DNA of 40,689 nucleotides from Phycisphaerales bacterium (lineage in GTDB: Bacteria > Planctomycetota > Phycisphaerae > Phycisphaerales > SM1A02), in the NCBI GenBank assembly GCA_014238965.1, contig JABAAC010000032.1, positions 1 through 40,689 of the forward strand, in the 5' to 3' direction. The notes under the pieces are model-generated. The model did no database searches, was not told the DNA's origin, and saw only the letters and a list, made by a program, of their open reading frames with translations. The number at the start of each line of letters is the position of its first letter. Positions within the stretch are counted from its first letter, which is position 1. The position numbers and the translations under genes were made by a program. Positions 18,131 to 34,900 of this stretch are shown here, piece after piece.

Positions 18131-18346
18131 TTATCGAAGTCGAAGGGCGTCGACGATGGTCCGCGCAGCTTCTTCTGGGATCCAACCATAGCCCCACAAC
18201 TCACGCAGGTCAGGCTCTGCCGTTCCCGTGGCCTGCATGACTTCACCTTCGGCAAGGTCATAACTGGTCTCAGTGTGCCTGAGCAACGAATACACGTGCT
18301 CGCACCAAGCGGGGAAGGAAGGTTGACCTGAACGATAGGGTGGCAT
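18131..18346 (-). CDS. Small hypothetical protein
   Basis: 71 residues from the ATG at 18346 (MPPYRSGQPS); an upstream ATG at 18367 would add 7. The body is protein-like: PAWCEHVYSLLRHTETS, an acidic turn, then ELWGYGWIPEEAARTIVDALRLR, probably two or three helices. No family recognised and no clear ribosome site. The longer frame (to 18454) has a composition suggesting out-of-frame sequence. It sits 55 bases upstream of the sorting-signal protein gene on the same strand. Confidence 0.45.
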   Translation of the reverse strand: MPPYRSGQPSFPAWCEHVYSLLRHTETSYDLAEGEVMQATGTAEPDLRELWGYGWIPEEAARTIVDALRLR

Positions 18347-18555
18347 TGTGAGAGTCCGTGTTTCCATACCCCAATACGCACAGTTCCTCGTATTGGTGTG
18401 CCTGAATGAGCGAGATTCTCGGTCCAAATCGCCCCAAGAGCGTCTTTGGGCCACAGGAGGCCACCATGGCCACCCTTACTTGCATCGACTGACAGGCACT
18501 TGACCATGAGCGAGACCCCGGAAATGCGCTCAGATGCGGCTTGCCTGATCTACGC

Positions 18556-20490
18556 TCAGGAGGCGGGGAAGTCTGATGCGCGCCTCGCTGGAGCTGTAAA
18601 GAGATGTTCGCGGGTCCACCAAGCCGAGCCTGTATCGGCGAACTGATACCGCCACAGTGACCATCGCAGCCAGGTCGGGGGCGTGTCCCCCATTGGAGCG
18701 GCCTCAAGAAGATCCAGGACCGGCCCCGAGGCGTTCGCAAGAGCCCTGAGCAGGGATGGGAGTATCTGTCGGCTCATGAATTGATTCCACGCAGTGTCAG
18801 GCCGCAGGATGCCAGCGTTAAAGAGCCGCTCGTAACTCAATGCGTCAAACCATAACTGCCAGTCGAGCCGAGGCATGCCCGGTTGGCACAACGGCGATGG
18901 TTGATCCAGTGGGCCAGGCTTGTACCGGAATGCATAGGGGGTCCACGTTTCGCCGTCTTGGCTCGATTCAATGATGAGCTCAGGCCGTGTTGTTGTCATG
19001 GTGGCGAACAAGCCATAGTTCGAGGCGATGTGCCAAGGTTGCCATAGCGACGTCCATTGAAGGACGGGTGCGGGCATGGACGGTTGGATCCACGGCAACT
19101 GTATGAGGCTGATGGACAGTACGAATACGCACGCTCCACCAACGACTACGCGTCGAAACAACGGTGCAGCTGCGCGAAGGCCCACGGTGAATCGGTGTCG
19201 AGCGTTTCGCGGCCACAGCAACAGGAGCATTGCGTCGTCGACTGCGGCCAGACACAGCACAATGGCCAGCCAGTTGAAGTAACCGTAATTGCCCGTTGCC
19301 GCAATGCCCAACTGAAGCAACACGATCGCCACAACTCCAATGAGTCTCGGTACGCGTGGCAGCAGCAGCATCCATGGCACCCAGAGTTCCACAACGAACA
19401 TGCCCTTGCTCAAGAGCGCAAGGAGCCACTGGGGGGACGCTGCGGCGATCCATGCGGGGCACCATGGCAACGGTTGCGTCCAGAAGTGGTACTGCAGTGC
19501 AGAGTCATTAGCCCAGGTCAGGTCACCTGAGTGCAGCTTTACCCAGCCAGACAGAAACATGAGTTTGACCAATAGCAGGATCAATACCCATCGCACCAGA
19601 GGCGATGGTCGCCGCACGTTGGGGGATGTCAGACGCCAGGTCAATGGCGACCAGAACACAGCGAGCAATCCAGCTTCCAGCAACAAGACATCCCATTGAT
19701 ATCCCGTAAAGACGCCCGCGGCGGTCACGAGTGACAACCAGGCTGCCCAGCACACAATGGCGCATAGCAAGGGCACAAGCCCCAATACCATTGCAACAGC
19801 TCCAATGGCACCAACGATCCACGTTGCGCTGAGCAGGCCATCGCCTCCGAACCACTGCAAAGTAGGGACACGCATGAGCCCCACTTCCGGTGCAGTTGTG
19901 CGTAATGCATCGATCCAAGCGCCAACGCCCTGCAAGCCCGATTCGCCAACGAGCCCGGGCAATTGAGGCCCTAGTGAGAGGAAGGCACCGAGGTAGATCA
20001 GGCCCATGCATCGCAGGAAGACCCGGCGCGTCAGGAGCCAGGTGTCCGGAATTTCTACTTTGCCCAAAACCGCCCGGCTGCACCGATCTGCACCACCGCG
20101 GTGGTTGGCGAGCCAAGCATAGGCCCACTCTGTGCAGGCCTTGAATCCCGGCACATGTCGATATAGCCACAAGGGCCAGCGGCGAACGCCACCTCGCGAT
20201 TGAATCGTGAAGACCGCTTCGGCGCCTTGGACATGCGTGCCATCAGGTTCAAGAAGGTGAAGTGCTGACTCAAGCGAGGCTCGGTCAATCGTCAGGCTGT
20301 CACCTTGTGACTGGAGTGTGGTCCAGGCGAATGTGTTGCCTGTAAGTGCATACCAACGGCTGGCCCAACGGCGACAGAAGGTGCACTGGCCATCCCATAC
20401 CACCACGGCACGACCGTCAGGCACCGTTGATACCGGTGGCCCGGATCCGCAGCCTGATGCGCAACTTGTACATGCGCCGCATGAAGACAT
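18556..20490 (-). CDS. DCC thiol oxidoreductase-lipase maturation factor fusion membrane protein
   Basis: 644 residues from the ATG at 20490. The extreme N-terminus has cysteines at 4, 7, 10 and 14 (CGACTSCASGC), the exact CxxCxxCxxxC spacing of 4Fe-4S ferredoxin loops. Residues about 28-150 are a DCC/DUF393 domain (VVVWDGQCTFCRRW, redox C36xxC39). From about 165 a polytopic membrane region follows, carrying the LMF signature KLMFLSGWVKLHSGDLTW and YHFWTQPLPWCPAW. The C-terminal 150 residues form the soluble region typical of LMF proteins (PWHIASNYGLFATM...). LMF1 in animals helps lipases fold in the ER; bacterial homologues are uncharacterised. The protein could couple thiol redox chemistry to an extracytoplasmic folding or lipid step. 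Confidence 0.87.
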   Translation of the reverse strand: MSSCGACTSCASGCGSGPPVSTVPDGRAVVVWDGQCTFCRRWASRWYALTGNTFAWTTLQSQGDSLTIDRASLESALHLLEPDGTHVQGAEAVFTIQSRGGVRRWPLWLYRHVPGFKACTEWAYAWLANHRGGADRCSRAVLGKVEIPDTWLLTRRVFLRCMGLIYLGAFLSLGPQLPGLVGESGLQGVGAWIDALRTTAPEVGLMRVPTLQWFGGDGLLSATWIVGAIGAVAMVLGLVPLLCAIVCWAAWLSLVTAAGVFTGYQWDVLLLEAGLLAVFWSPLTWRLTSPNVRRPSPLVRWVLILLLVKLMFLSGWVKLHSGDLTWANDSALQYHFWTQPLPWCPAWIAAASPQWLLALLSKGMFVVELWVPWMLLLPRVPRLIGVVAIVLLQLGIAATGNYGYFNWLAIVLCLAAVDDAMLLLLWPRNARHRFTVGLRAAAPLFRRVVVGGACVFVLSISLIQLPWIQPSMPAPVLQWTSLWQPWHIASNYGLFATMTTTRPELIIESSQDGETWTPYAFRYKPGPLDQPSPLCQPGMPRLDWQLWFDALSYERLFNAGILRPDTAWNQFMSRQILPSLLRALANASGPVLDLLEAAPMGDTPPTWLRWSLWRYQFADTGSAWWTREHLFTAPARRASDFPAS

Positions 20491-20511
20491 CACAGGAGCG
20501 TATCGAAACTG

Positions 20512-20545
20512 ACAGCCCCGCAACGCCAAAGCATTGCGGGGCTGT
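20512..20545 (-). terminator. Hairpin after the choice-of-anchor B gene
   Basis: ACAGCCCCGCAA (20512-20523) pairs perfectly with TTGCGGGGCTGT (20534-20545), a 12-bp GC-rich stem with a 10-base loop. It is placed 27 bases after the stop of the minus-strand gene ending at 20572 and just upstream of the next gene's start. There is no strong U-tract. Confidence 0.65.
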
Positions 20546-20571: not shown

Positions 20572-22815
20572 TCAGCAGTCACTGCCAAAGGCGGCCAGTA
20601 CGACGAGGAGGTCTTCCACCATGTAGTCGGTGCCGAAGCCAGCGATAGCGGTCAGGAGATCTTCCACGTCCACAAATCCATTGCCGTCAAGGTCGCCAGG
20701 GCACAATTCGTCACACACAATGCTGCTGATGACAATGGCATCAATCCCTGCTTCGACGACGGAGCCATCGCCGATATCTTCCACGGAGAAACGCAGTTGT
20801 GTGTTTGCACTGGGGGTGTAGCCAGCAATGCTTGCAAGGTCGAATTCGGTCTCAATCCAGCCGCCGACTGTGTCAGGCCCGGACGGGCCAACCTGTTCCA
20901 GTTGAGTCCAACTGGCGCCGCTGTCATCTGAAATGTCAACGTACATGCTGTCTTCATCTGGCGAGGCGCCATAACTATTATCAAGCCAGCGGGCATATGA
21001 CAGAACGCCACCGGTTGATGCATCGATCACAGGTGATGTGAGTGTGGTTGTGCCCCCGTCGACGTCACTGTTGCATGCACTGCCAGAGGAGTTGTCAGTC
21101 AATGCGCACGAGCCCGATCCATCAAAGTCTGCCGGTGGGTCGCCACGGTCGCAGTTGACCGGCACACCGATATTCCACTGTCCATCGGTTGCATTGCCGC
21201 TGGTGGCCCACCCAGTGCTGCTTTGGAAGTTGACATCAAGCGACGTCGTAAGGCCATCGGCTGAAATGGCTGTGCCATTGCCAACACTTCGAGTGTCGCC
21301 TGAATCGGCGGCCACAATGGCTTGATAGCCCACGACATCGCCACATACCGATGCGCCGAATATGGCGCGAAGCACCATTGGGTCGCCACTATCAACGATC
21401 GAAAGGTCACTTTGATGGCTGCCTTCTGAGTCCATCCAAGTCAGTTGCGAGGCATTGGCATCAAGGTTGATGCCTTGGGCAAAGGTCACCTCGATGTCGA
21501 AGGAATCACCGCCCGATGGGTCCAGTTGTTCGGGTACTTCATTCAACAGCGCTACGCTCATGGCGGGCGGTTCGAGCCGCCACACGAAGAGGCCGCGTTC
21601 TAAGTCAGAGCCAATCACCGTGCCACTGGGGAAGAAGGGATATACCGACCACAGGCCGTTGAACGAGGCAACGTCGCTTCCGGGATAGGTGTCAAACCAG
21701 GTGGTTTGGACTGGGTTGAGGCGATCGGAAATGTCAAAGACGCGAATCCCGCTTCGGTAATTGGCCTGATACATGACATCGCCACGGATGTAGAGGTTGT
21801 GGTCAATTGATGTCGAGCCAGTTGTGCATGTGCCCGCTTGGAATGGGCTATTGAGGTTGGAGACGTCGATGATTCGGGTCGTGGTCAGTGATCCGGTGTT
21901 CTGCTCGTCGAGTTCATCGTTCAGATAGAAGTAGTTTCGATCTTCAGAGAGCCAACCTTGGTGGCTGTAGTTGTTTTGAGCATACTGCAGGTGTGCCAAC
22001 TGCACGATATTGCCTTTGTCCGTGATGTCGAGAATGGTCAGGCCCGTCTCATTCCAGCCGTTGTTGGTGCCAGCGCAGCAGAATGCGATCTCTCGGCCGG
22101 CCCATTGGCCGCTTCCGTCGGGGTACGTGATGATCTGTGCATCATGTACGTAACGATCGTCCCAACTGCCAATGTAGGGGGGGTTAGAGGCACTTGCATT
22201 GAGGTCGTAGATACGCAGTCCACTGCCGCCGCCAGCGCGGTACAGGTAGCCGCTTTCTTCGTTGAGTACGACGTTGTGTGTAGCGGCGCTACCACCGGTA
22301 GTGACCGTATTTTCTAGCGTGACCAAGCCCAGATCAACGTTGGCAAGGTTAATGACCTGAATGCCACTGCCGCCTTCGCTTACTGCGTATGCGCGAATGC
22401 CAAATACTTTGATGTCACGCCAGAGTGAGTTTGGGCCGTCTATCTCGCCAACGATTTGGGCATTGGAAGGATCTGTAATTTCGACAACTGCAGTTCCAGA
22501 TTCGTGCGTGAATAAGGCGTACTCGCGGCCGCTTGGTGATGTGTAGCCCCAGCAATCTGAGCCGGTAGATGGGTTGCCCTGAAATTCACCTAGGGGCAGC
22601 CATGACGTCATCTCAATGTCGCCTTCACTCTGGAAGGTGCCACGTGTCAACGGGGGGCTGGTGGCTTTTCGCCATGCTGGAGCCAACACTGGGGCTTCAC
22701 GATCCTGGAGTTTTGGGTCGTCTTGGTGACCGAGCGCTACGCTCGCCCCGATCGACGCCAAAACGACGATAGCGCCAAGCCGTGCGACTGTCTTTGGATT
22801 TAGAACCTGCTCCAT
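20572..22815 (-). CDS. Choice-of-anchor B beta-propeller surface protein with dockerin-like tail
   Basis: 747 residues; AGAGGAG (minus strand, 22823-22829) precedes the ATG at good spacing. A signal anchor (ARLGAIVVLASIGASVALG) is followed by a 'choice-of-anchor B' LVIVD-type beta-propeller (about 65-420). Its signs are WGYTSPSGREYAL, repeated V.DIS.-type strands and HNLYIRGDVMYQANY. Next come a beta-sandwich (about 425-540) and a MAM/jelly-roll-like domain (about 540-700). The C-terminus CPGDLDGNGFVDVEDLL, ending GSDC, is a dockerin-like calcium segment with a partly duplicated 'VEDLL' helix. Probably a secreted, surface-attached adhesion or binding protein. Confidence 0.9.
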   Translation of the reverse strand: MEQVLNPKTVARLGAIVVLASIGASVALGHQDDPKLQDREAPVLAPAWRKATSPPLTRGTFQSEGDIEMTSWLPLGEFQGNPSTGSDCWGYTSPSGREYALFTHESGTAVVEITDPSNAQIVGEIDGPNSLWRDIKVFGIRAYAVSEGGSGIQVINLANVDLGLVTLENTVTTGGSAATHNVVLNEESGYLYRAGGGSGLRIYDLNASASNPPYIGSWDDRYVHDAQIITYPDGSGQWAGREIAFCCAGTNNGWNETGLTILDITDKGNIVQLAHLQYAQNNYSHQGWLSEDRNYFYLNDELDEQNTGSLTTTRIIDVSNLNSPFQAGTCTTGSTSIDHNLYIRGDVMYQANYRSGIRVFDISDRLNPVQTTWFDTYPGSDVASFNGLWSVYPFFPSGTVIGSDLERGLFVWRLEPPAMSVALLNEVPEQLDPSGGDSFDIEVTFAQGINLDANASQLTWMDSEGSHQSDLSIVDSGDPMVLRAIFGASVCGDVVGYQAIVAADSGDTRSVGNGTAISADGLTTSLDVNFQSSTGWATSGNATDGQWNIGVPVNCDRGDPPADFDGSGSCALTDNSSGSACNSDVDGGTTTLTSPVIDASTGGVLSYARWLDNSYGASPDEDSMYVDISDDSGASWTQLEQVGPSGPDTVGGWIETEFDLASIAGYTPSANTQLRFSVEDIGDGSVVEAGIDAIVISSIVCDELCPGDLDGNGFVDVEDLLTAIAGFGTDYMVEDLLVVLAAFGSDC

Positions 22816-22861: not shown

Positions 22862-24127
22862 TCATTCGCTTGCGTCGAGCATTGGATCCCCATCTACGTC
22901 GATTAGTGGCTTGTTTTTACCACTCCGGGCGTCTGGGGCTCCGTCCTGCAAACTCTCCAAGAAGGCCTCTAGGGCCAATATGTCTTCAGGGGGTAAATGG
23001 AGCGGCTTTAGGATGGTCTCTTGGTGGTGATCGATGCGAATGTGGCCCTCAAGTGTGTTGTAGAAGGCCAGCGTCTGCGCCAGTGTATGGAAACGACCAT
23101 CGTGCATGTACGGCCCGGTGGTCGGGAGATTCCGAAGGGATGGCGTTTTCATCGCTCCCCAGTGCTCTGGGCCGGCCGTGGCGTTGCCTGCTCGCCGTGC
23201 GCGGTCGCCTTCAGGATCGTCAGACCACACGCTGCCAAGGCGAAACTCAGCCGAACGCGCGGACTCTAGGCCACCCGCTCGCCCTGGGTCAGTGGGGAAC
23301 AGCCCATCGGCTGTCGGCAGCCCCTGGTTGTGAAAGCCCCGGTCGGTAAACAGTGGGCCAGAATGGCAGTTTCTACAGCCCGCTTCACCGATGAACAATT
23401 GCAAGCCTCGAACAGCAGCTGGTGAAAGGATGCCATCGGTGGGCTTCCCACGTTTCAGCGCTTGGGCAAATCGATCAAAGGGCGAACGTCCGACGGTCAG
23501 CGTTCGTTCAAAGGCTGCAACAGACTTGCCGACATTCACAAATGCCCGTGTCACCGATGTTCGATCCGCTTGGGACATGGCATCCCATGCAGGCATGCCA
23601 GGTTTGGCACGATCGGGAAACCGTTGCGCATCGCCCATGTCTGGCAGCTCGCCAAACAGCGCTTCATACTGTTGTTTTAGATCCGGCTCTTGCGATATCA
23701 CTCGAACGATGTTGACACGGGTGCTGTCTATTTCGAGTGGGTTCTCGAACGGGCTTAGCGCTTGTGACCAAAGCGAATCTGAGCGGCCATCCCAGAAAAA
23801 CCATCGCTGGTGGGCAACGCTTCCAAGTGGCGGTGAGTTTCGAGTGCCAACGCCCACGCCTTGGGCTACAGCACGCGCGTCTGTGAAACTCCGGCCCGGT
23901 TGATGGCATGTTGCACAGGACACAGCCCCGTTGCTGGAAAAGATAGAGCGGTTGAACACCATGGCGCCGAGCATCGCTGCCTCGGCGTTGTCAGCGACAC
24001 GATTGCTGGAGTCTGGTGGGGCTGGTGGTACCGGGCTCATCGTGCCGATGATGCGTACTTCTTTGTCAGTCAATGGCGGCGCTTGAGTACCGGCAATGAG
24101 GCAGATACTAAGTGCAGCGGTGATCAT
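22862..24127 (-). CDS. Di-haem cytochrome c peroxidase (MauG/CcpA family)
   Basis: 421 residues with a short signal (MITAALSICLIAGTQA). Two haem-attachment sites are visible: CATCH (71-75) and CRNCH (251-255). Surrounding family motifs are SCATCHQPGRSFTD, WFFWDGRSDSLWSQAL, FENPLEI, GPLFTDRGFHNQG and a late KTPSLRNLPTTGPYMHDGRF (axial Met/His region). This secreted enzyme reduces H2O2 or oxidises a protein or metal partner. Its start overlaps the upstream lipoprotein stop (ATGA at 24124-24127), so it closes the envelope operon. Confidence 0.93.
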   Translation of the reverse strand: MITAALSICLIAGTQAPPLTDKEVRIIGTMSPVPPAPPDSSNRVADNAEAAMLGAMVFNRSIFSSNGAVSCATCHQPGRSFTDARAVAQGVGVGTRNSPPLGSVAHQRWFFWDGRSDSLWSQALSPFENPLEIDSTRVNIVRVISQEPDLKQQYEALFGELPDMGDAQRFPDRAKPGMPAWDAMSQADRTSVTRAFVNVGKSVAAFERTLTVGRSPFDRFAQALKRGKPTDGILSPAAVRGLQLFIGEAGCRNCHSGPLFTDRGFHNQGLPTADGLFPTDPGRAGGLESARSAEFRLGSVWSDDPEGDRARRAGNATAGPEHWGAMKTPSLRNLPTTGPYMHDGRFHTLAQTLAFYNTLEGHIRIDHHQETILKPLHLPPEDILALEAFLESLQDGAPDARSGKNKPLIDVDGDPMLDASE

Positions 24128-24507
24128 TCCAACACCACGTCCGATTCGGCGCGATGGACGGTGCCATTGGCGTCGGTGATGTCAAACTGCACACGCCAGA
24201 GACCGGGCATGTGAAACAGCATGTCTTTGGCAAGCCAAGTGGTGTGGGATAGTTGCTCAGTCGATGGCTCGTGCAGCATGCCATGTCGATGCTCGGGCAT
24301 GCCAGCATTGATTGAGACGTGGCGTGGCGTTGGATCGACGGTGGCTCGAATGGTGAAGTACTCATCCACAACCATTTCACTTCCAGTGGCGGTGTTCCAG
24401 TGCACCGTATAGACGTCATCATTGCTTGTCGTGTCGAATCCACGAGTTGGATGTTGGCACGCGGCCAGTGGTAGCAGTGCAAGTAGGAGCAATGTCTTGA
24501 CAGTCAT
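24124..24507 (-). CDS. FixH/YtkA-like lipoprotein
   Basis: 127 residues from the ATG at 24507, with lipobox LAAC (C17) after MTVKTLLLLALLPLAA. The body is a small beta-sandwich: DEYFTIRATVDPTPRHVSINAGMPEHRHGMLHEP, then LLFHMPGLWRVQFDITDANG, which fits the YtkA/FixH pattern of predicted metal- or redox-associated envelope domains. Many His and Met residues (MPEHRHGMLH) could bind copper. Both ends overlap neighbours as ATGA (24504-24507 and 24124-24127), showing tight translational coupling with the NHL gene and the peroxidase gene. Confidence 0.7.
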   Translation of the reverse strand: MTVKTLLLLALLPLAACQHPTRGFDTTSNDDVYTVHWNTATGSEMVVDEYFTIRATVDPTPRHVSINAGMPEHRHGMLHEPSTEQLSHTTWLAKDMLFHMPGLWRVQFDITDANGTVHRAESDVVLE

Positions 24508-26066
24508 TTGGTGTTCTCTCGCATGCTTGGCGTGTTTTGTGGCGTGTACGCTCGGCCCGTGCCAAAAGTCATCAACCATGCACCAGTGTTATCAAAGAAC
24601 TGCATTCGATGATTTCCATGATCGAGCACAAGGATGCGACCATTGTGATCAACGGCAACTTCTGTTGGGTTCCAGAGTTCCCTGTGGTTGGTGCCTTTGT
24701 CGCCCAGTTGTACAGCCTGAGCCCCTTCGCCGATGATCAGTTGGTCGTGTTCGTTTAGCGCCACTGGCCGACTATCTGGTAGTTGCGATGTCCGGTTGAA
24801 TGAGTGGAAGTCTGCGGTGGCTGTTGTGGCTGGTGTTGTGCGCAGCAACTTGGCCATGTCTGGGTCAAAGCGGGGACGATCTGGTGGCAGTAGGTCGAGT
24901 CGCCAGGTGTGCGTGTCGCCATCTGCCGCGTCGGAGATGGATAGCAAGAGCCCCGCATCTGTATCTTCAAATACAAAATCTGTGGGGTGCTGCACACAGC
25001 CTGGGCCGTCTCCTGGCTCGCCAAACGAGGAGACGTGGACTGGTGTGCCACGGTCAATATCAAAGACGTGGAACAATCGGATCTCTGGCTCAAAGACCAC
25101 AAGGGTTCGTCCATACAAGCCCAATCGGGGGCCAAAGTGGGATTGCGAACCTGTTGGCTGAGTCGGAGCGAGTGCCCGATCGGGTTCGCCCATGGTGAAC
25201 CCCTGTATACGTTGTTCAAATGGCTCGGCTACAACGCACCCCTGAGTTGTGAAGGCGACATCCTCGGGATAGTGAATGCGGCCCTCTCCTTCTCGGGGCT
25301 TCAAGGCATGCATGCCCCACCAGTCGATGGGTTTGCCAGTGAATGCATCGATTGCTTGAATGCGGTGATTCAGTCGGTCCGCAACGAGCAGGATGCCGTC
25401 ACGTTCGTCAAGTCCAGCTGGTTCAGCGAAGCGGCCCGGTGCTTTGCCCCAGCCGCCAATTGTCCAGCGGTGTGCGCCATCGGCATTGATTGCATGCACC
25501 TTGTGGGTTGCTTCGTCGCCGATGAACAGCGTGCCGTCATCGCTCATGGCGACGGACGTGGGCAAGCCCAATGGCACACCGTTGACGTCGCTGTACAGAC
25601 CCATATTGGCGCCGGACTGATCAAAGAGGAGTACGCGGCGGTTTCCGGTATCCGCTACGGCAATGCGATCGCCGTTTGAAGCGATGTCCACTGGATGATT
25701 GAACTGGGTCAGGCGATCACCCTTTGACCCAAACGCGTGCGATAACGTAGCGTCATCGCCTAAGACGGACACGCGATGGTGTGCTGCATCGAGCAGAACG
25801 ATGGCTCCATCTGGCGTGATGTCTATGCCAACGAACTGTGCGCCATCGTTTGCGCCAAAGGGCAAGGTGTGATGATCGTGCACAGAGGGAATGTGCAGGC
25901 CCTTTGTGTCACACATGATGATGCCATGTTCATCGTGTGCGGCAATCGCGCGAATGTGGCCAGCCTCAGCCGTCCATGCATAGTGTGCGGGTAGTGGTGT
26001 TGCGGTGATCAGCAGCAGTTGGAGGAACACGGTTCGCTCAAGTCGCGCTCGTCGAAGCGGCTGCAT
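24504..26066 (-). CDS. Secreted NHL-repeat beta-propeller protein
   Basis: 520 residues with a signal-like N-terminus (ERTVFLQLLLITATPLPAHYA). At least five NHL-type repeats are readable, e.g. HPVDIASNGDRIAVADTGN, LPTSVAMSDDGTLFIGDEAT, EPAGLDERDGILLVADRLN, YPEDVAFTTQGCVVAEPF and NPTEVAVDHNGRILVLDHGN, implying a six-bladed propeller plus extra strands. Such propellers are binding platforms; no catalytic residues are evident. The start overlaps the preceding lipoprotein gene by 29 bases and the stop overlaps the FixH-like gene by 4, so it is part of the same operon. Confidence 0.87.
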   Translation of the reverse strand: MQPLRRARLERTVFLQLLLITATPLPAHYAWTAEAGHIRAIAAHDEHGIIMCDTKGLHIPSVHDHHTLPFGANDGAQFVGIDITPDGAIVLLDAAHHRVSVLGDDATLSHAFGSKGDRLTQFNHPVDIASNGDRIAVADTGNRRVLLFDQSGANMGLYSDVNGVPLGLPTSVAMSDDGTLFIGDEATHKVHAINADGAHRWTIGGWGKAPGRFAEPAGLDERDGILLVADRLNHRIQAIDAFTGKPIDWWGMHALKPREGEGRIHYPEDVAFTTQGCVVAEPFEQRIQGFTMGEPDRALAPTQPTGSQSHFGPRLGLYGRTLVVFEPEIRLFHVFDIDRGTPVHVSSFGEPGDGPGCVQHPTDFVFEDTDAGLLLSISDAADGDTHTWRLDLLPPDRPRFDPDMAKLLRTTPATTATADFHSFNRTSQLPDSRPVALNEHDQLIIGEGAQAVQLGDKGTNHRELWNPTEVAVDHNGRILVLDHGNHRMQFFDNTGAWLMTFGTGRAYTPQNTPSMRENTK

Positions 26067-26442
26067 CAGCGGGGTTGGTCGGTGTCAAACCGTTAATGCC
26101 CTCTTCGTCCTCGACAGGTTGTGGGGGTCCTACGGCGTATCCGGCATCTTGTGCAGCGTGGATGGCACAGTCAAGTGCTGCGCTGTTTCGGGCAATGATT
26201 GTTGCTTGTTTTTGGTTAAACGACACCGCGACCGAGCGAACATCGCTACAGCGATTCATTGCTCTAGATATTGCATTGGCGCAGTTCTGACAATGCATGC
26301 CTTCGATAGACACTGTGGCATGTACCGGCTGAATCGCGATCGGAGTGGATAGGTCGGTACGTTCGGCAGCCTGCGGTTCTTGTGGTGCTTCGGCACAGCA
26401 CCCAAGGATCAAAAACAAGAAGATCAGTTGCAATCGAATCAT
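26038..26442 (-). CDS. Heavy-metal-associated (HMA) domain lipoprotein
   Basis: 134 residues: lipobox LILGC (C15, followed by C16), then a short linker, then an HMA fold at about 40-105. The domain has the metal-binding loop GMHCQNCANAI (C51xxC54), VAVSFNQKQATI and an AGYAVG end. This is a MerP/CopZ-type metallochaperone tethered outside the cytoplasm instead of soluble in it. The tail (EDEEGINGLTPTNPADAAAS) is acidic and low complexity. It lies between DUF1501 (25 bases upstream) and NHL (overlapping), downstream of a P1B copper ATPase whose exported ion it could bind; that role is inference. Confidence 0.85.
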   Translation of the reverse strand: MIRLQLIFLFLILGCCAEAPQEPQAAERTDLSTPIAIQPVHATVSIEGMHCQNCANAISRAMNRCSDVRSVAVSFNQKQATIIARNSAALDCAIHAAQDAGYAVGPPQPVEDEEGINGLTPTNPADAAASTSAT

Positions 26443-26467: not shown

Positions 26468-27742
26468 TCAGGTGAGGATGTTCAATTTTTGGAATCGATG
26501 TTTGAGTACTGCAGTGGAGTCCGTCTTGAGCCAATCTTCAAGCACGCCCGCATAGACCTGTCGGAAGTCAGTCGTGTACTTCAGATCTCCGCTATCAAGG
26601 TTCACAAGATCAGGGTGTCGACCATGCAAGCCTGGCTGGACCATTGGGCCAATCAGGTACAACGGGGCGGCAGTGCCATGATCCGTACCCCCGGAAGCAT
26701 TCTGAGCAACGCGGCGACCGAATTCAGAGAACACCATGGTCAGGACACGGCCATCGTTGCCTTGCGCCTTAAGGTCGTCTTGGAATGACTTGAGGCTGTC
26801 GCCAACTTGACGCAGCAGCCGACCATGTTGCCCGGCTTGATTCGCGTGCGTATCAAAGCCACCAAGTGTGACGTAGTAGACACGTGTAGGGAGTCCTGAA
26901 CGAATCATGGCTGCAACCATACGGAGCTGATCAGAGAGATTCCCGCCGGGGAAACTCGCCAGTGGGGCAAGCGATGCGGCCTTGCGCACTTGGGCTGACG
27001 AGATCTGCGCATCAAGGGCCGTACGCCGAAGAAACGCCAGCGTGTCAGTCGCTTGATCGGGGTCCCCAGGGACAGTTCGGTACGCTTGCTTCAGGTCGTT
27101 GTCGATGTCTTCGCCGACCCAGCGGTAGAGCTCTGGCTTTTCGAATTGAACTGGGCGGGAACGCCGGCCCGTCAATGCCAGTGGGGATGTGCTGCCTAGA
27201 GCGATGGCCGCTTGTGGGTCCGGAGTGCCGCTGCATGTGTTATCGAAGTAGCGACCAAGCCAGCCATCGCTGTGCCCTGTGGGGTCCGCCGAGTGCCAAA
27301 TGTCCATCGAGGAGAAGTGCGATCGGTTGGGGTTTGGATAGCCCGTGCCCTGCACAATGGCGGCTAACCCATCATCCATGAGCGTCTGCATGCCCTGGAA
27401 TTCTGGATTCAGCCCGATACCGTCGCCGCCGGGGACAGCCAGCGCAAGGGCGCCATCTGTCGTGCCAGGCCGGCTAATGCCGATGTTGGGCCGAGCTCGG
27501 TAATACGCATCGTTTCCGTATGGCACAACGGTGTTGAGGCCATCGTTGCCACCGCCAAGTTGTACGACGACAAAAATTCGGTCCTGTGGAACGCCTGGGA
27601 TCGATGACGTTAGCGCGCCAAGTGGTGACGAGACCCCTTCGGCGGTTTGTTGCAGGAACAATGGTGCTGTGCCTACCAGGGACGCGAAGGCTGTACCACG
27701 GTGCAGAAAGTTGCGTCGACTCCAGGGTGTTTCGTATGACAT
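26468..27742 (-). CDS. DUF1501 protein with Tat signal
   Basis: 424 residues. The N-terminus WSRRNFLHRGTAFASL is a twin-arginine signal (R9/R10). The body has the DUF1501 pattern: FVVVQLGGGNDGLNTVVPY, YPNPNRSHFSSMDIWHSAD, and the late VFSEFGRRVAQNASGGTDHG, which resembles an alkaline-phosphatase/sulfatase-like fold with metal-binding D/H. Gene pairs of DUF1800 and DUF1501 are very common in planctomycetes, and here the pair is 12 bases apart. GAGGC upstream of the ATG sits close to the DUF1800 stop. The biochemical role is unknown. Confidence 0.92.
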   Translation of the reverse strand: MSYETPWSRRNFLHRGTAFASLVGTAPLFLQQTAEGVSSPLGALTSSIPGVPQDRIFVVVQLGGGNDGLNTVVPYGNDAYYRARPNIGISRPGTTDGALALAVPGGDGIGLNPEFQGMQTLMDDGLAAIVQGTGYPNPNRSHFSSMDIWHSADPTGHSDGWLGRYFDNTCSGTPDPQAAIALGSTSPLALTGRRSRPVQFEKPELYRWVGEDIDNDLKQAYRTVPGDPDQATDTLAFLRRTALDAQISSAQVRKAASLAPLASFPGGNLSDQLRMVAAMIRSGLPTRVYYVTLGGFDTHANQAGQHGRLLRQVGDSLKSFQDDLKAQGNDGRVLTMVFSEFGRRVAQNASGGTDHGTAAPLYLIGPMVQPGLHGRHPDLVNLDSGDLKYTTDFRQVYAGVLEDWLKTDSTAVLKHRFQKLNILT

Positions 27743-27754
27743 AGAAGCCTCGGT

Positions 27755-29242
27755 TCAGCAGAGTTGATATTCGGGGGCTGCACTAATGAGTGCGATCAGC
27801 CGTGTGACAGTGGGTGCGTCAAGTGGGCGGCCACGGGCCAGATCCGCCCATTGGTTTAGACGGGTTGCATCTGGCATGGTGCCTAGCAAGAAGCGTGCGA
27901 GGTAGGTTGCAGCATCCTTGGGGCGATCTCGCTGGGGAACATTGGGCAGGTGCTCCACCAGCCGTGACAAGTCGTGGTCCAACTGACCACCGCCATCCCA
28001 CGGGCTGCTTCCGGGTTCTCGCCCCGTGAGCAGGTAGACGAGCGTATTTTGTCGAGTAAACAACGTGGACGTATTAATCCAAGCTGTGCCGCCATCCCAG
28101 CCCTTAACGCTTGGGGGCGCAAACAACGACTGTCCCATCATTGTGCAAGCTTCAGAGAGTCGCCTGACGTTTCGAGCTGGGAGATTCATAGATCGGCACG
28201 CTTGCACAACCAGTTGTACTGGGCTCTTGACCTGAGTGCCTTGACGGGTCGGGTGGTAGAAGTGTTTCGACTTGAATACCTCTTTAAGCACTGGGCGGAT
28301 GTTCCAGTCTTGACGCTGCAACGTTTTGGCCATCGCGTTGACTACGGCCATGGACTGGTCGGTTGAGTCCGCTGCATCGTCTATGAAGAATCTGTACAGC
28401 TTCCAGCAAATCCATGTCGAGCTGGTCGGTCGGGTAAAGATCAACTCAACAAAGTCATCTGCGGACCAGTTCCCGCGGCGCCCGAAAATGGTCTTTGTGT
28501 CCTCGTCATGATTCCGACGATTGAATGTAAATGCATCGTCTTCGAAGGTAAACCCCGTGAGGGCTCTTGCGCCTTCTTTGATGTCGTCTTCGGAATAGCC
28601 ATTGCCTTCGCCCAGCGTGAACAACTCCATCAGTTCGCGCGCTAGGTTCTCGTTTGGGGCGCCACGACGATTTTGGTTGTTGTTGAGATATTTGATCATC
28701 GCAGGATCGCGAATGATGCCATGCACTAGTGTGTCCTTGAAATTGCCCAGGGCGTTTTCTCTGAACATCTGATTCTGCATCAACAGATGCCAAGAGTCTT
28801 CGACCGCTCGGTATCCAGTGGCAAAGTGCCCGTGCCAGAACAACGTCAGTTTTTCTTGAAGTGGTCGTGACGTTTCAATCATCCGTTGGAGCCACCATGA
28901 TCGAGCGGTGGCCATTTGTCGACGATCTTCACGCTGCCGCTGTTGGCGGAGCATGCGTGCCGTTTCTCTGGCAGACTCATCTCCATTTCGGCGGGCCATA
29001 CGCAATTGGTTGCGTTCTTGGGCGGTGGGGGGACGCATGATGTCCGACTTGAAGCCGGGATCATCGATGGGGTCTGGAACCCTTGTCCAGTCCACTAAGT
29101 GGTCGACCGCGCCATCAAGTCCCATTTCGGTCAACGTCAGGACTTGTTCTGGTGTGCCACCAAAGCCTGCTCGTTGCAGCAAGTGCGCGGCTTCCCAATA
29201 GCCAAAGTTGTTGGGATCAAATGGAGCCAGCGGGCGTGGCAT
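27755..29242 (-). CDS. DUF1800 family protein
   Basis: 495 residues; AGGAGG five bases before the ATG is the best ribosome site in the operon. Family markers: an N-terminal HLLQRAGFGGTPEQV, LTLFWHGHFATG, NENLARELMELFTLGEG, EDDIKEGARALTGFTF and the long helical C-terminus. DUF1800 proteins are mainly alpha-helical, usually paired with DUF1501, and without a settled function. It starts the DUF1800-DUF1501-HMA-NHL-FixH-peroxidase run, 104 bases downstream of the copper ATPase. Confidence 0.92.
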   Translation of the reverse strand: MPRPLAPFDPNNFGYWEAAHLLQRAGFGGTPEQVLTLTEMGLDGAVDHLVDWTRVPDPIDDPGFKSDIMRPPTAQERNQLRMARRNGDESARETARMLRQQRQREDRRQMATARSWWLQRMIETSRPLQEKLTLFWHGHFATGYRAVEDSWHLLMQNQMFRENALGNFKDTLVHGIIRDPAMIKYLNNNQNRRGAPNENLARELMELFTLGEGNGYSEDDIKEGARALTGFTFEDDAFTFNRRNHDEDTKTIFGRRGNWSADDFVELIFTRPTSSTWICWKLYRFFIDDAADSTDQSMAVVNAMAKTLQRQDWNIRPVLKEVFKSKHFYHPTRQGTQVKSPVQLVVQACRSMNLPARNVRRLSEACTMMGQSLFAPPSVKGWDGGTAWINTSTLFTRQNTLVYLLTGREPGSSPWDGGGQLDHDLSRLVEHLPNVPQRDRPKDAATYLARFLLGTMPDATRLNQWADLARGRPLDAPTVTRLIALISAAPEYQLC

Positions 29243-29346: not shown

Positions 29347-31536
29347 CTAGGAGGTCTGCCCCAGCCGGCGGCGCAAGGTGGAACTCAGTCGCACCGTGTT
29401 TCCAATGACGCTCACATCACTGATAGCCATGGCTCCCGCTGCGATCACCGGCCCCCACGTGCCCAGCAGACCAAAGGCTGCAATTGGGATCATTGCGCTG
29501 TTGTAGACAAAGGCTAGAAAGAGATTTTGCTTGATCGCGGTCAATGTGCGTTTGGCAATAGTCACCAATAACGGCACCGCCGATGGCCGATGTGCTGGAA
29601 TGACCACGTCTGCAGCTTCGATAGCGACGTTTGTGCCAGATCCCACAGCCATGCCGACAGTTGCCCCAGCAAGTGCTGCTGCGTCGTTCAACCCATCGCC
29701 CACCATGATGGTGGTCTCGGGTCGGTTAGTCACCCATTGTGCCTTGGATTCTGGGGTTTGTCCTGCAAGAACATGTTCGAGGTCAAGGCCAATCGCGGTC
29801 GCAATTGCGAAAGCAGCTTCTTCTCGATCGCCTGACAACATGGTGACTTGTAAGCCGAGTTCTTGCAGTTCACGTATGGATGAGGCTGCGTCGGGAAGTG
29901 GCGCATCTTTGACGTCAATTCGGCCTCTTTCCACGCCATCGATTCGAACGACACACGCTGCGCGCGGGTCTCGCATTACTTCGACGGCTTTGCCATCGAC
30001 GGTCGCCTTGACACCCTGCCCTGGCACAGCGACAAAGTCATACGCCTTGGGGGGCGAAATGCCGCGTCGGTGTGCTTCGGCCATTACGGCTGTGGCCACG
30101 GGGTGTTCACTGGGTGACTCCGCTGCAGCGGCGAATCGGACAACCTCATCTTCGTCAGTGCCCGATTCGGCAATGACTGCAATGACTGTCGGTCGGCCCT
30201 CCGTGAGCGTGCCGGTTTTATCGAAGATCACATGTCTAACTGATGCGGCATGTTCGAGTGCCTCGGCTGATTTGATCAAAATGCCGCGCCGGCCGGACTC
30301 GCCCGTGCCGACCATAATGGCCATGGGTGTTGCGAGGCCTAGAGCGCACGGGCACGAAATGATGAGCACGGTCACGGCCGCGATCACCCCCGTCTGGAAT
30401 GGCGCCCAAGATCCTTCAATACCTGCAGCAATGGACCAGCCTGTGATCGTCAGAAGGGCAACGCCAAGCACGATGGGGACGAATACGGAACTCACTCGAT
30501 CAGCCAGTCGCTGAATAGAGGCACGTGATCCCATTGTGTTGGACACAAGTTCCGCGATGCGGGCAACGGTCGAGTCCGCGCCACTGGCTGTGGCTTCAAT
30601 GATCAGTCGGCCCACGGTATTGAGCGAACCACTGACGACGGCATCGCCTACGCCGCGCTGAACCGGCTCAGACTCGCCAGTGATCAGGGACTCGTCGATT
30701 TCAGACGCGCCCTCAACCACGGTGCCGTCGACGGGCAAGCGTCCTCCGGGGCGAACAATCAGCCTGTCACCTGGTGAGACTGTGGCAATCGCCACTCTTT
30801 GGGTTGTGTGATCGCCGGTGATGCGCTCCGCCGTGTCGGGTTGCAACTCGAGCAATTCACGAATTGCCGATCCTGCGCGGCGCGATGAACGTGCTTCAAA
30901 CCAATGCCCAAGACTAATAAGTCCAAACAGTACGGATGCCTCTGTGAAGTACATGGGTTGGCCGTGATCCACACCCACTCGTTCAAGGATAAAGAGCACC
31001 ACGGAGTACGCCCAGGCGGTGCCTGCTCCAATGCTGATGAGCGTGTCCATATTGGTCGTGCGACGCTTTGCCGCTTCGATCGCCGACATAAAAAAGCCCG
31101 GGCCAACGAGGACTAAGACAGCCGTGCCGGCGGTCAATTGCAACCACTGCAGCCACAGCATGGACTCATCGAGTGTCCAGGACATGATTGCTGTGGGCAG
31201 CCAGATGCCAAGTCCAATGATTGCACGCCGAGCCCATCGCCGTTCTTTGACGATGGCAGCAGCTTCACGTTCGCCTTTACGCAGAGGCGCGGCCTCAGCA
31301 GCGGGCTGTGACGGGAAGCCTGTGGCCGTCACGATCGCGGCGGCCTGGGCCGGGTCGATGGTGCCCACTACAGTGACGATGGCCCCGGGCACATTCACCG
31401 CAACATCCTCAACGTGATCATGGCTGATCAGGGCTTGTCGAATAGAACCTGCACAGCTCGCGCAGTGCATATCCTTTGTGGCGAGTTGAAACGACGGGGT
31501 CTGGGCCTGTTGGGTCGTTTCATTGGTCACTTGCAA
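29347..31536 (-). CDS. copA: Cu+-type P1B ATPase (CopA-like)
   Basis: 729 residues. One N-terminal HMA domain carries DMHCASC (C25xxC28). Then come the membrane segments, the A-domain TGE (in ITGESEP, 286-292), CPC at 395-397, phosphorylation DKTGT (439-443), the SEHP motif (476-479) and GDGLND (613-618). N671-x6-YN (678-679) matches the Cu+-pump signature of the next-to-last helix. In the last helix the usual MxxSS reads MAISD (M703...D707), so one proposed Cu-ligand serine is Asp. The start is a TTG at 31536, or more likely the GTG at 31530, which has CGGAG eight bases upstream. A 12-bp palindrome CCTCCTAGGAGG straddles the stop codon. Confidence 0.93.
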   Translation of the reverse strand: MQVTNETTQQAQTPSFQLATKDMHCASCAGSIRQALISHDHVEDVAVNVPGAIVTVVGTIDPAQAAAIVTATGFPSQPAAEAAPLRKGEREAAAIVKERRWARRAIIGLGIWLPTAIMSWTLDESMLWLQWLQLTAGTAVLVLVGPGFFMSAIEAAKRRTTNMDTLISIGAGTAWAYSVVLFILERVGVDHGQPMYFTEASVLFGLISLGHWFEARSSRRAGSAIRELLELQPDTAERITGDHTTQRVAIATVSPGDRLIVRPGGRLPVDGTVVEGASEIDESLITGESEPVQRGVGDAVVSGSLNTVGRLIIEATASGADSTVARIAELVSNTMGSRASIQRLADRVSSVFVPIVLGVALLTITGWSIAAGIEGSWAPFQTGVIAAVTVLIISCPCALGLATPMAIMVGTGESGRRGILIKSAEALEHAASVRHVIFDKTGTLTEGRPTVIAVIAESGTDEDEVVRFAAAAESPSEHPVATAVMAEAHRRGISPPKAYDFVAVPGQGVKATVDGKAVEVMRDPRAACVVRIDGVERGRIDVKDAPLPDAASSIRELQELGLQVTMLSGDREEAAFAIATAIGLDLEHVLAGQTPESKAQWVTNRPETTIMVGDGLNDAAALAGATVGMAVGSGTNVAIEAADVVIPAHRPSAVPLLVTIAKRTLTAIKQNLFLAFVYNSAMIPIAAFGLLGTWGPVIAAGAMAISDVSVIGNTVRLSSTLRRRLGQTS

Positions 31537-31942: not shown

Positions 31943-34900
31943 ATGGCCATTCCTGTTGTCTCCCCGCTCGCTAAGAAACTCTTCGGTACACGCAACGATC
32001 GTCTCGTCAAGCGATACCTCAATACTGTCGACGAGGTGTCGTCGCATGAGGCTGATGTTCGCCAGCTCGACGACGCCGCACTGCTCGCTAAGACGGAGGA
32101 GTTTCGAAGTCGATTCGATGATGGAGAGACATCCGAGTCTCTTATCCCGGAAGTGTTTGCTGTTGCACGCGAGGCTATGGACCGAAACGTGGGCATTCGG
32201 AACATCTTCGATCCAACGCAAGACTTCGATGCATCGCTGCTGCCCGATGATGTGCGAGAGTTGTACAACGACACACGCGCTGCCATGGAGGCCGCCGAGC
32301 CGACCAAGCCACTTGCTGCATTCCTCGGTGGATTGAATGAGGTACCTGCTTGGCAGTGGATGCAGATCCCAACGGCGATCTATGAGGCGGTTAGGGAGAT
32401 ATACCCCAAGTCGAAGCCCCCGTTCAGGGCCCGCCCGTTTGATGTGCAGATTCTCGGTGGCATTGTGCTGTTCGAGGGCCGAATCGCGGAGATGAAAACG
32501 GGCGAAGGAAAGACGATCGTTGCGCCGTTGGCGTGTTATCTCGCCGCGCTACAGCGAAAGCAAGTACATGTTGTCACAGTGAACGACTATCTCGTGCAGC
32601 GTGATCGCGATTGGACATTCCCATTCTTTCACGGCCTTGGCCTCACTGTCGGGGCGATTCATCCACAGCACGTGCTTCCACCACAACTCAAGCAAGTGAT
32701 GTATCGCTGTGACATTGTCTATGGCACCACTGCTGAATTTGGTTTTGACTACCTTCGTGACAACATGAAAATGTCCGCGCAAGAGCAGGTGCAGAAGCAC
32801 CTGCAGGTCGCCATCGTTGATGAAGTTGACTCCACATTGATCGATGAGGCCCGAACGCCACTGATCATTTCCGGGCCTGCGCACGATCACGAGCCTCGAT
32901 ATGCCTTGGCCGACACGCTTGCTCGCCACCTCATTGACTTGCAAAAACAATGGAATGTCGCTGACGAGAAGGTGCAATCCTGTCAGCTTCGTGTGTCTAC
33001 TCTTGAAGGTGATATTCGAAATGCTCGCGACAAGGCGAGTGTTCCAGCTCTAAAGGAGCAGATGGAGCAAGCTAAAGCGGACCTTCCGAAATTGGAGTCT
33101 GCCCGCGATGCCTACACGCAGTATTACGAAGTAGAACTCGACAAGAAACGCGCTACGCTGACTCACGATGGTATTTCGCAGGCGCAAACTGAGTCGGGCT
33201 TGGGGTCGTTTTACGTCGGTGAGAACATCGACATGCCGCACTTGTTGGAGCAGGCCATTCGTGCTCATGCTGTGTATCAGCGAGATCGTGACTACATCGT
33301 TGGCCCCGATGCCGAGGGGTCGCAGACGATCGTGATCGTCGATCAGAATACGGGTCGAAAAATGATCGGGCGGCAGTGGTCGGACGGATTGCATCAGGCC
33401 GTTGAGGCGAAAGAAGGAGTGCCCATCAAGCAAGAAACCCAGACGATGGCCACGATCACGATTCAGAACTTCTTCAAGCTATACGAGCGATTGTCGGGCA
33501 TGACCGGTACGGCGGACACCGAGGCTACGGAGTTCTACGAGATCTACAAACTAGACGTGGTGGTCATTCCCACCAATGTGCCCATCGAGCGTGCTGACCA
33601 TCAAGACGTCGTCTATCTATCTGAGAAGGATAAGACAAGTGCGATTTTGGAGGAGGTCCGCCGATTTAACGATGTGGGCCTGCCCGTGCTCGTAGGTACG
33701 ACGAGTGTTGAAAACAGCAAGATGCTCTCTACAGAGTTGGCACGTCAGTTTGGCGTCAAGCATGAGGTGCTCAACGCTGAACAACATGAGCGGGAGTCTG
33801 AGATCGTCAAGAGTGCCGGCCAGCTTGGCGCGGTAATGGTTGCCACGAACATGGCAGGCCGTGGCACCGACATCAAGCTAGGGGAGTTTAGCCGAGGGGA
33901 TCTTGTTGCCCACTGGAAGCAGCGAGATGTACTGCCTCGCGATGCAAGTGCTGACATGAGCGATGACGCGATCGTTGCAGCGGCTTGGCGTCACATTGCA
34001 CTGCGGGAGTTGGGTAAGTCTAAGTCGGACATTAATGATATGGACGATGCCGCGATTGAGCATGCATTGTTCGCACACTGGTATGTCGAACTTGGCTGGG
34101 CGAAGTCTGCCAAGGCAGATGGCATGTCGATCAATGCATTGCGTGAGGCGTTAGACAAGACAGGGTCAAGCGTATTGCACAAACTTCGTGTCTTTAAGAA
34201 CGTTGAGGATATGGGCGGCTTGCATGTGGTGGGCACCGAACGTCACGAATCAAGGCGGATCGACAACCAGTTGCGAGGACGTTCTGGGCGGCAGGGAGAC
34301 AATGGGTCCTCACGGTTCTTCCTGAGCCTAGAAGACCCACTGATGAAAATGTTTGCCGGTCCGACGACATTGAAAGTCCTCAGTCGCTTTGGCATGAAGG
34401 AAGGCGATGCGATTGAGCATCCAATGTTGACAAAGGCAGTCGGCAAAGCGCAGCGTAAAGTGGAGGAACGCAACTTCCTCATTCGCAAGAACATTCTTGA
34501 GTACGACGAAGTGATGGACCATCAGCGTCATGACTTCTATGGGACTCGTCAGCGTGTCGTTGAGGGTGATGGGCTGCGTGAACTCATCTTTGAGTATTTG
34601 AGTACGGCTGTTGAGGATGCGTGTTGGCGGTACCTGGACAAGAGTTATCGATCAGAGTGCATTGCTGAGTGGATTCGCGAGCATCTGAACATCTCTATTG
34701 AGCCCGAACGATTGAAGCTCGATGATCAAAACCAGTTGCAAGAGAGCGTTCGTGTGAACGCTGCGCAGGAAGTCAGCCATCTTGTACGCATCTCAATAGG
34801 TGAATTCCTTGCTGAAGACATTGATCTTGGTACAGGGAACGTGGTGCAGGCGACCGAAGGCGGAAGTGATTGGCAAGGGCTGGTGAACTGGGTCAATGGT

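Follow-up and report, generated by a model that had tools for sequence, protein, structure and literature searches.

In the window, by which we mean the whole stretch of 40,689 nucleotides analysed, an open reading frame on the minus strand (20490..18556) starts with an ATG at 20490, has a stop codon ending at 18556 and encodes a protein of 644 residues. The amino-terminus of this protein reads MSSCGACTSCASGCGSG, with cysteines arranged as C4-x2-C7-x2-C10-x3-C14; residues 1–14 (20449..20490, minus strand) thus form a CxxCxxCxxxC leader. This is followed by a DCC1-like domain (residues 30–131; 20098..20403), which scores 52.5 bits against Pfam PF04134 (cut-off 27.8), and by a membrane part containing the LMF1 domain (PF06762, residues 263–422; 19225..19704; 140.5 bits, cut-off 27) and the LMF1 C-terminal domain (PF25179, residues 488–629; 18604..19029; 101.7 bits, cut-off 34.2), the latter probably extracytoplasmic. 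The initial annotation had described the same three parts, with the four cysteines within the first 14 residues but no mention that the gene is on the minus strand, and the Pfam matches bear it out.

By its PF06762 and PF25179 matches over the curated cut-offs, the protein is a member of the lipase maturation factor (LMF) family; a role in lipase maturation is putative. The amino-terminal domain is DCC1-like, as judged from the PF04134 match and the presence of a DxxCxxC motif. The residues of this motif, D33-x2-C36-x2-C39, are invariant in all 27 rows of our protein alignment (A1), as is Lys318 inside the LMF1 domain. Sequence searches gave no convincing relative of solved structure (best E 0.46).

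Distribution and conservation of the cysteine leader

Of the 181 genomes of the window's family, 24 contain a match with an E-value of 1e-20 or lower. Among the DCC-LMF genes of these 181 genomes, 23 have readable amino-termini and 21 of those encode four or more cysteines ahead of the DCC domain; we call these 21 the leader genes. They are spread over 20 genomes, the window's own included, and have four cysteines before the DCC domain in 15 cases and five in six. The DCC-LMF gene of genome G360 (L053) has two leader cysteines, in a CxxC only, and that of G349 has none. In G455 the LMF gene is without a DCC domain, the LMF match of G361 is a carboxy-terminal fragment, and in G418 the LMF gene is interrupted by an in-frame TAG. 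G429 contains two leader-bearing LMF genes (L058 and L043) from different subclades; the contig of L058 is just 3,478 bases long, and contamination is possible.

A CxxCxxC followed by a fourth cysteine occurs in 20 of the 21 leader genes, the spacing to the fourth cysteine being three residues in 11, four in eight and five in one; the remaining gene has no third cysteine, yet four cysteines in total. Alignment A1 consists of 20 of the 21 leader genes and seven rows without a four-cysteine leader. Omitted from it for lack of a DCC domain, or for being a fragment, having an unclear start or containing an in-frame stop, are L005, L007, L009, L011–L014, L033–L036, L054, L056, L057 and L059; L031 (the same gene as L042) and the DCC-only matches L015–L030 are also left out. 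L054 was included in the start-site counts given below. In the leader rows, the columns of Cys4, Cys7 and Cys14 are cysteine in 20 of 20 and that of Cys10 in 19 of 20. Of the seven other rows, only that of G360 has cysteines in leader columns (those of Cys7 and Cys10).

Between Met1 and Cys14 no residue but the cysteines reaches 95% conservation in the leader rows, and the cysteines are kept at 43–63% protein identity to the window protein, with the residues in between varying. Past position 40, cysteine makes up 1.26% of the residues of the 20 aligned leader rows. The cysteine codons of the leader are mixed (56 TGC and 34 TGT) and its length changes in steps of whole codons, which is what selection on the protein would produce. 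In a tree computed without the leader columns, the 20 leader rows form one clade with a support of 100/100, consistent with a single change of state, and G360 is its sister. Together these comparisons confirm that the leader cysteines are conserved beyond chance within the window's clade. The initial annotation had envisaged that homologues might lack the cysteines; inside this clade that is not so, 21 of the 23 readable family genes keeping at least four. In more remote DCC-LMF homologues the four-cysteine leader is missing.

No leader was seen outside the window's family in a class sample of 298 genomes or an order sample of 400. In the class sample, 14 genomes have a match to the LMF part and three of them the leader, all from the window's family; the amino-terminus of the G210 match (L009) is unreadable and several LMF matches are without a DCC domain. 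The order sample yielded two LMF genomes outside the family, G066, in which the match starts past the DCC part, and G523, in which it starts at residue 253 and is preceded by just 37 open codons.

We also considered the leader as a portable element on other proteins, searching the window's own genome for the exact spacing only. The pattern occurs at 11 sites, versus two for the backward pattern, but at the ten further sites the longest open frame has 91 codons and the others at most 44, and the idea was rejected. A frame of 35 codons in the same genome (L098, contig C125, 37400–37429, minus strand), starting MGSCQTCGGCCGEG, likewise has a cysteine-rich beginning. Acylation of the cysteine in the Met-Gly-Cys start was discarded as well: a lipobox requires a hydrophobic stretch ahead of the cysteine, and there is none in the sequence.

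Start codon and transcription

The ATG at 20490 is very probably the start codon. As the window gene has in-frame start codons on both sides of it (TTG, TTG and GTG upstream, both TTGs falling inside a hairpin; GTG downstream at codons 23, 29 and 30), this assignment is based on comparison with relatives. An upstream in-frame ATG, GTG or TTG is absent in 17 of the 21 leader genes, six lack any further start codon on the way from the ATG to the first DCC strand, and five offer no ATG, GTG or TTG other than this ATG over the whole span from the upstream stop codon to that strand. A start downstream of the cysteines, the eventuality of which the initial annotation had warned, was rejected on this comparison across the 21 genes; with the -10-like boxes described below, a start upstream of them is most likely.

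In 15 of the 21 leader genes a TANNNT hexamer lies 6–9 bases ahead of the ATG, while at other upstream offsets the number of genes with such a hexamer averages 0.29 and never exceeds three. In the window this is the -10-like TACGCT (20497..20502, minus strand), 6 bases ahead of the ATG. None of the 21 genes has a Shine-Dalgarno-like GGAG, GAGG or AGGA ahead of the ATG. The presence of the box and the lack of a Shine-Dalgarno-like site suggest a leaderless mRNA starting at the ATG. Among 24 window genes checked, six have a Shine-Dalgarno-like site and four a TANNNT box, the LMF gene being one of the four.

A strong hairpin (20514..20543, minus strand; z -5.69 for an 81-base stretch) is located in the interval between the LMF gene and its upstream neighbour. 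It is terminator-like, with no clear T run, and is missing from the output of the terminator scan; its folding was computed for the window sequence alone. Because it separates the two genes, transcription of the LMF gene is probably independent, and strict operon membership, which we had considered, is weakened by the hairpin and the -10-like box. By eye, G+C-rich inverted repeats, some with T runs, can be seen before the LMF start in several relatives.

Gene neighbourhood

The LMF gene lies at the end of a cluster on the minus strand. The first gene of the cluster encodes a copper-type P-type ATPase with an amino-terminal heavy-metal-associated (HMA) domain (29347..31536; 513 bits against TIGR01511, cut-off 397). 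It is followed by genes for a DUF1800 protein (27755..29242), a DUF1501 protein (26468..27742), an HMA domain protein, a putative lipoprotein, with an MHCQNC motif and a lipobox-like start (26038..26442), and an NHL-repeat propeller (24504..26066). Then come a small putative lipoprotein rich in histidine and methionine (24124..24579), a MauG/MbnH-like dihaem protein (22862..24127) and, directly upstream of the LMF gene, a choice-of-anchor B family protein (20572..22815; TIGR04312 over its cut-off). The small lipoprotein is conserved with the dihaem gene and has no Pfam match; it presumably resembles YtkA-like proteins, although Pfam does not support that identity and we did not adopt it. The dihaem protein matches PF03150 over the cut-off and scores 137.1 bits against the MbnH family TIGR04039, below the cut-off of 362.85. 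Because of this shortfall, it is chiefly the ATPase and the HMA protein that would link the cluster to copper.

Two further genes flank the cluster. Downstream of the LMF gene, 18131–18454 (minus strand) encodes a small conserved protein without a Pfam match, and two stretches similar to it are found in L074. On the plus strand, 31943–36049 encodes a SecA of 1368 residues, which seems long for the family and in which Pfam matches both SecA_DEAD and SecA_SW as two separate stretches; relatives have a matching long SecA, for example with 1378 aligned columns in L118.

The order of the cluster genes is conserved across loci. The choice-of-anchor B gene is directly upstream in all 21 leader genes, the contigs of L058 and L120 holding only its end. 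An ATPase homologue, matched by similarity only at loci other than the window, heads the cluster at 17 of 17 leader loci where this could be tested (the window, L064, L066, 13 further loci and L118), and the MauG-like dihaem protein is likewise present at 17 of 17 testable loci. In the case of four leader genes (those of G380, G382 and G419 and the second copy of G429), the ATPase position would lie beyond the end of the contig. The HMA gene was not detected in every cluster.

Three LMF genes of the family without a four-cysteine leader have a different setting: at L074, L075 (5.5 kb only) and L076, homologues of the ATPase and of the dihaem protein are missing alongside. The association is not perfectly clean, since in G360 (L074) a choice-of-anchor B-like stretch of 29% identity lies about 2.3 kb upstream of the CxxC-only LMF gene.

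The choice-of-anchor B gene (142 of 181 family genomes at E 1e-60) and the dihaem gene (125 of 181 at E 1e-40) are far commoner in the family than the leader-bearing LMF gene. At ten loci in nine genomes of other genera (L079–L088), the NHL, lipoprotein, dihaem and choice-of-anchor B genes are grouped, with the choice-of-anchor B gene of one of these genomes, G360, on a separate contig, and no homologue of the window-type ATPase, DUF1800, DUF1501 or LMF proteins was found alongside at E 1e-5. This pattern suggests that the leader-bearing LMF gene appears where an ATPase-DUF1800-DUF1501 block joined an older core. G420 (L089) has the entire block from the ATPase to the choice-of-anchor B gene with the LMF gene missing, and no LMF match anywhere in its genome; together with the in-frame TAG of G418, this indicates that the LMF gene is dispensable.

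Predicted structure and topology

An AlphaFold2 model calculated with alignment A1 has a mean pLDDT of 89.1 and a pTM of 0.89; residues 1–15, containing the leader, are the only listed stretch with a pLDDT below 50. When the amino-terminal piece was modelled alone (mean pLDDT 83.6), residues 1–13 were again under 50. The leader is thus predicted to be disordered in both models, which would fit an arm that folds on a metal or a flexible shuttle.

Hydropathy and charge bias point to a cytosolic location of the leader and DCC domain (residues 1–158; K+R 18.3, D+E 13.0), with an N-in topology. By the same reasoning, the loops 175–222 and 314–357 (K+R 1.8 and 1.1) are placed outside and the stretch 421–451 (K+R 7.2) inside.

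In the predicted model, the LMF part folds like vitamin K-dependent gamma-carboxylase, to which the membrane part was matched in 16 entries with Z-scores of 15.7–24.1; the next unrelated structure has a Z-score of 5.9. The best match, of residues 148–636, has a Z-score of 24.1 and an rmsd of 6.3 over 374 aligned residues with 12% identity. Foldseek gives a best E-value of 2.3e-7 to gamma-carboxylase with TM-scores of just about 0.4, so the match is one of fold, not of close detail. In a local hhalign alignment, Lys318 falls on the catalytic Lys218 of the carboxylase, but the alignment is non-significant (Prob 0.14, E 0.43). When searched by itself, the DCC part matches thioredoxins and GST-like proteins, with low Z-scores of 4.6–6.0; almost all the listed matches are of thioredoxin/GST-like fold, and Z-scores under 8 may mean a common arrangement. 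The DCC domain is therefore predicted to be of thioredoxin/GST-like fold, with an invariant CxxC.

Proposed function of the leader

The explanation that we prefer, tentatively, is that the leader is a cytosolic metal-thiolate or thiol arm, which regulates or feeds electrons through a DCC-LMF redox protein tied to the copper-type cluster. The protein would reside in the inner membrane, with the flexible four-cysteine arm and the DCC CxxC in the cytosol and an LMF membrane core of gamma-carboxylase fold ending in an extracytoplasmic domain. The DCC domain would supply or take thiol electrons on the cytosolic side, and the LMF core would pass electrons, perhaps by way of a quinone, to exported partners encoded by the neighbouring copper-linked genes. 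The arm may bind a metal through four thiolates, Cu(I) or Zn(II) being the likeliest, and sense it or hand it over beside the copper ATPase, with Cu(I) as the first guess given the copper-type ATPase gene alongside; alternatively, it may exchange thiols with the DCC CxxC. We infer metal binding and the identity of the metal, the link to copper, the topology, and the flow of electrons and its direction.

A thioredoxin-like CxxC in the cytosol, borne by a multi-pass protein with the gamma-carboxylase fold, suggests redox exchange between the cytosol and either the membrane or its far side. An arm that holds on to its number of cysteines while their spacing is loose, and that is disordered in the metal-free models, suits a thiolate site for a soft metal or zinc, or a thiol shuttle. 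The proposal is supported by the presence of the leader in 21 of 23 genes, its restriction to one clade, the synteny of the cluster, the DCC CxxC and the predicted fold. It is weakened by the LMF gene being apparently transcribed apart and dispensable (G420, G418); by the dihaem protein scoring below the MbnH cut-off, the HMA gene not being detected everywhere and the window's genome already encoding a DsbD-type protein; and by the TM-scores of about 0.4, the non-significant Lys318-Lys218 equivalence and the DCC matches reaching only a Z-score of 6.

Less probable, though a possibility to be taken seriously, is that the leader binds no metal and is purely a thiol shuttle exchanging disulfides with the DCC CxxC. 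Sulfhydryl oxidases have flexible shuttle arms, and here a disordered arm adjoins a thioredoxin-fold CxxC, with a cysteine number of four or five that is kept while the spacing drifts. For such a shuttle a single CxxC would do, yet CxxCxxC is present in 20 of 21 leader genes, and the relative that has just a CxxC (L053) sits outside the full cluster.

The initial annotation had recognised in the leader the spacing of a 4Fe-4S site, which would pass electrons to the DCC and LMF parts. 4Fe-4S clusters can be assembled on short peptides of the CxxCxxCxxxC kind, and CxxCxxC with a fourth cysteine is the rule in the leader genes. The exact spacing, however, is restricted to 11 of 21; one gene has no third cysteine; and in none of the 21 is the fourth cysteine followed by a proline, as the last cysteine is in ferredoxins (CxxCxxCxxxCP). 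In two-cluster ferredoxins the fourth cysteine of the motif binds the other cluster, making a single motif an incomplete site. Furthermore, the window protein has no Pfam match to Fer4 at E 0.001, and no Fe-S family was matched among the scanned cluster proteins. On these observations the ferredoxin reading is weak and the less likely one, and we regard 4Fe-4S binding as unlikely. Of the electron or thiol input into the LMF protein that had been suggested, the idea of thiol or metal input gains from the cytosolic placement and thioredoxin/GST-like fold of the DCC domain; the specific ferredoxin site is not supported.

It also seems improbable that the leader is a structural zinc knuckle without a redox role, which would tether the protein to the ATPase or another partner. 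Closely spaced, four thiolates are well suited to Zn(II), and the ATPase gene is conserved in the same cluster, but conservation of nothing except the cysteines between Met1 and Cys14 leaves no evident docking face. That the protein is an ordinary LMF/DCC fusion with a neutral, lineage-specific cysteine-rich tail and coincidental synteny would agree with the confinement of the leader to one clade and the loss of the gene at L089, but is very hard to reconcile with cysteines kept at 43–63% identity while the residues between them vary.

Comparison with known systems

The window protein shares the LMF1 and LMF1_C domains, both matched in it over the Pfam cut-offs, with the family of human LMF1, for which a redox role is proposed; it differs in being bacterial, in having a DCC domain and a four-cysteine leader attached and in being encoded in a copper-type cluster, and no lipase family was matched among the scanned cluster proteins. 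The leaderless bacterial DCC-LMF fusions have the same domain order, with Asp33, Cys36, Cys39 and Lys318 invariant in their seven aligned rows, but not the four-cysteine leader; the leaderless loci with longer flanks (L032 and L074) have no ATPase or dihaem homologue, L074 containing the choice-of-anchor B-like stretch. With the carboxylase GGCX, residues 148–636 share the fold in the predicted model, at 12% identity and a TM-score of about 0.4; the window protein differs in carrying a DCC domain and leader on what is probably the cytosolic side.

The cluster resembles MbnH/MauG-type copper-linked dihaem systems in the PF03150 match of its dihaem protein, which is under the equivalog cut-off of TIGR04039, and no MbnP was matched among the scanned cluster proteins. 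Bufferin clusters are also copper-linked and include a membrane protein of unsettled role, DoxX (PMC12452194). DoxX is not an LMF protein, and no DUF692, DUF2063 or DUF2282 was matched among the scanned proteins of the window cluster.

Studies of the mammalian endoplasmic reticulum (ER) conclude that a membrane protein must carry reductant derived from thioredoxin inward, and human LMF1 is named as a candidate carrier across the ER membrane (PMC7197872, PMC12781119). The bacterial DCC-LMF fusion fits that proposal.

Each part of the protein is already known; what may be new is the leader on a DCC-LMF protein, its placement in the cluster and the fold link. A search of openly accessible PMC papers gave no apparent description of a cysteine-led DCC-LMF protein, and neither the link between the LMF and gamma-carboxylase folds nor the place of the leader beside a copper-type ATPase/MauG cluster was found there; the subscription literature is mostly outside this scope, and an open-literature search does not show novelty. 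The initial annotation was silent on the copper-type gene cluster and the gamma-carboxylase fold.

A wider reading, which we consider doubtful, is that LMF proteins are quinone- or thiol-based carriers that bring reductant across membranes and have a gamma-carboxylase fold; in the bacterial form the DCC domain would be the thioredoxin-like donor in the cytosol, the LMF part the relay in the membrane and the cysteines a metal-sensing gate coupling the flow to copper traffic on the opposite side. That a thioredoxin fold is naturally fused to the probable cytosolic end of an LMF protein is direct evidence, of the fusion type, for an input of thiols, while the predicted gamma-carboxylase fold hints at a quinone site in LMF. 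The conserved cysteine arm and the copper-type neighbourhood would offer a concrete bacterial handle on the LMF mechanism, in a system that lets one ask how this family moves electrons, thiols or metal across the membrane.
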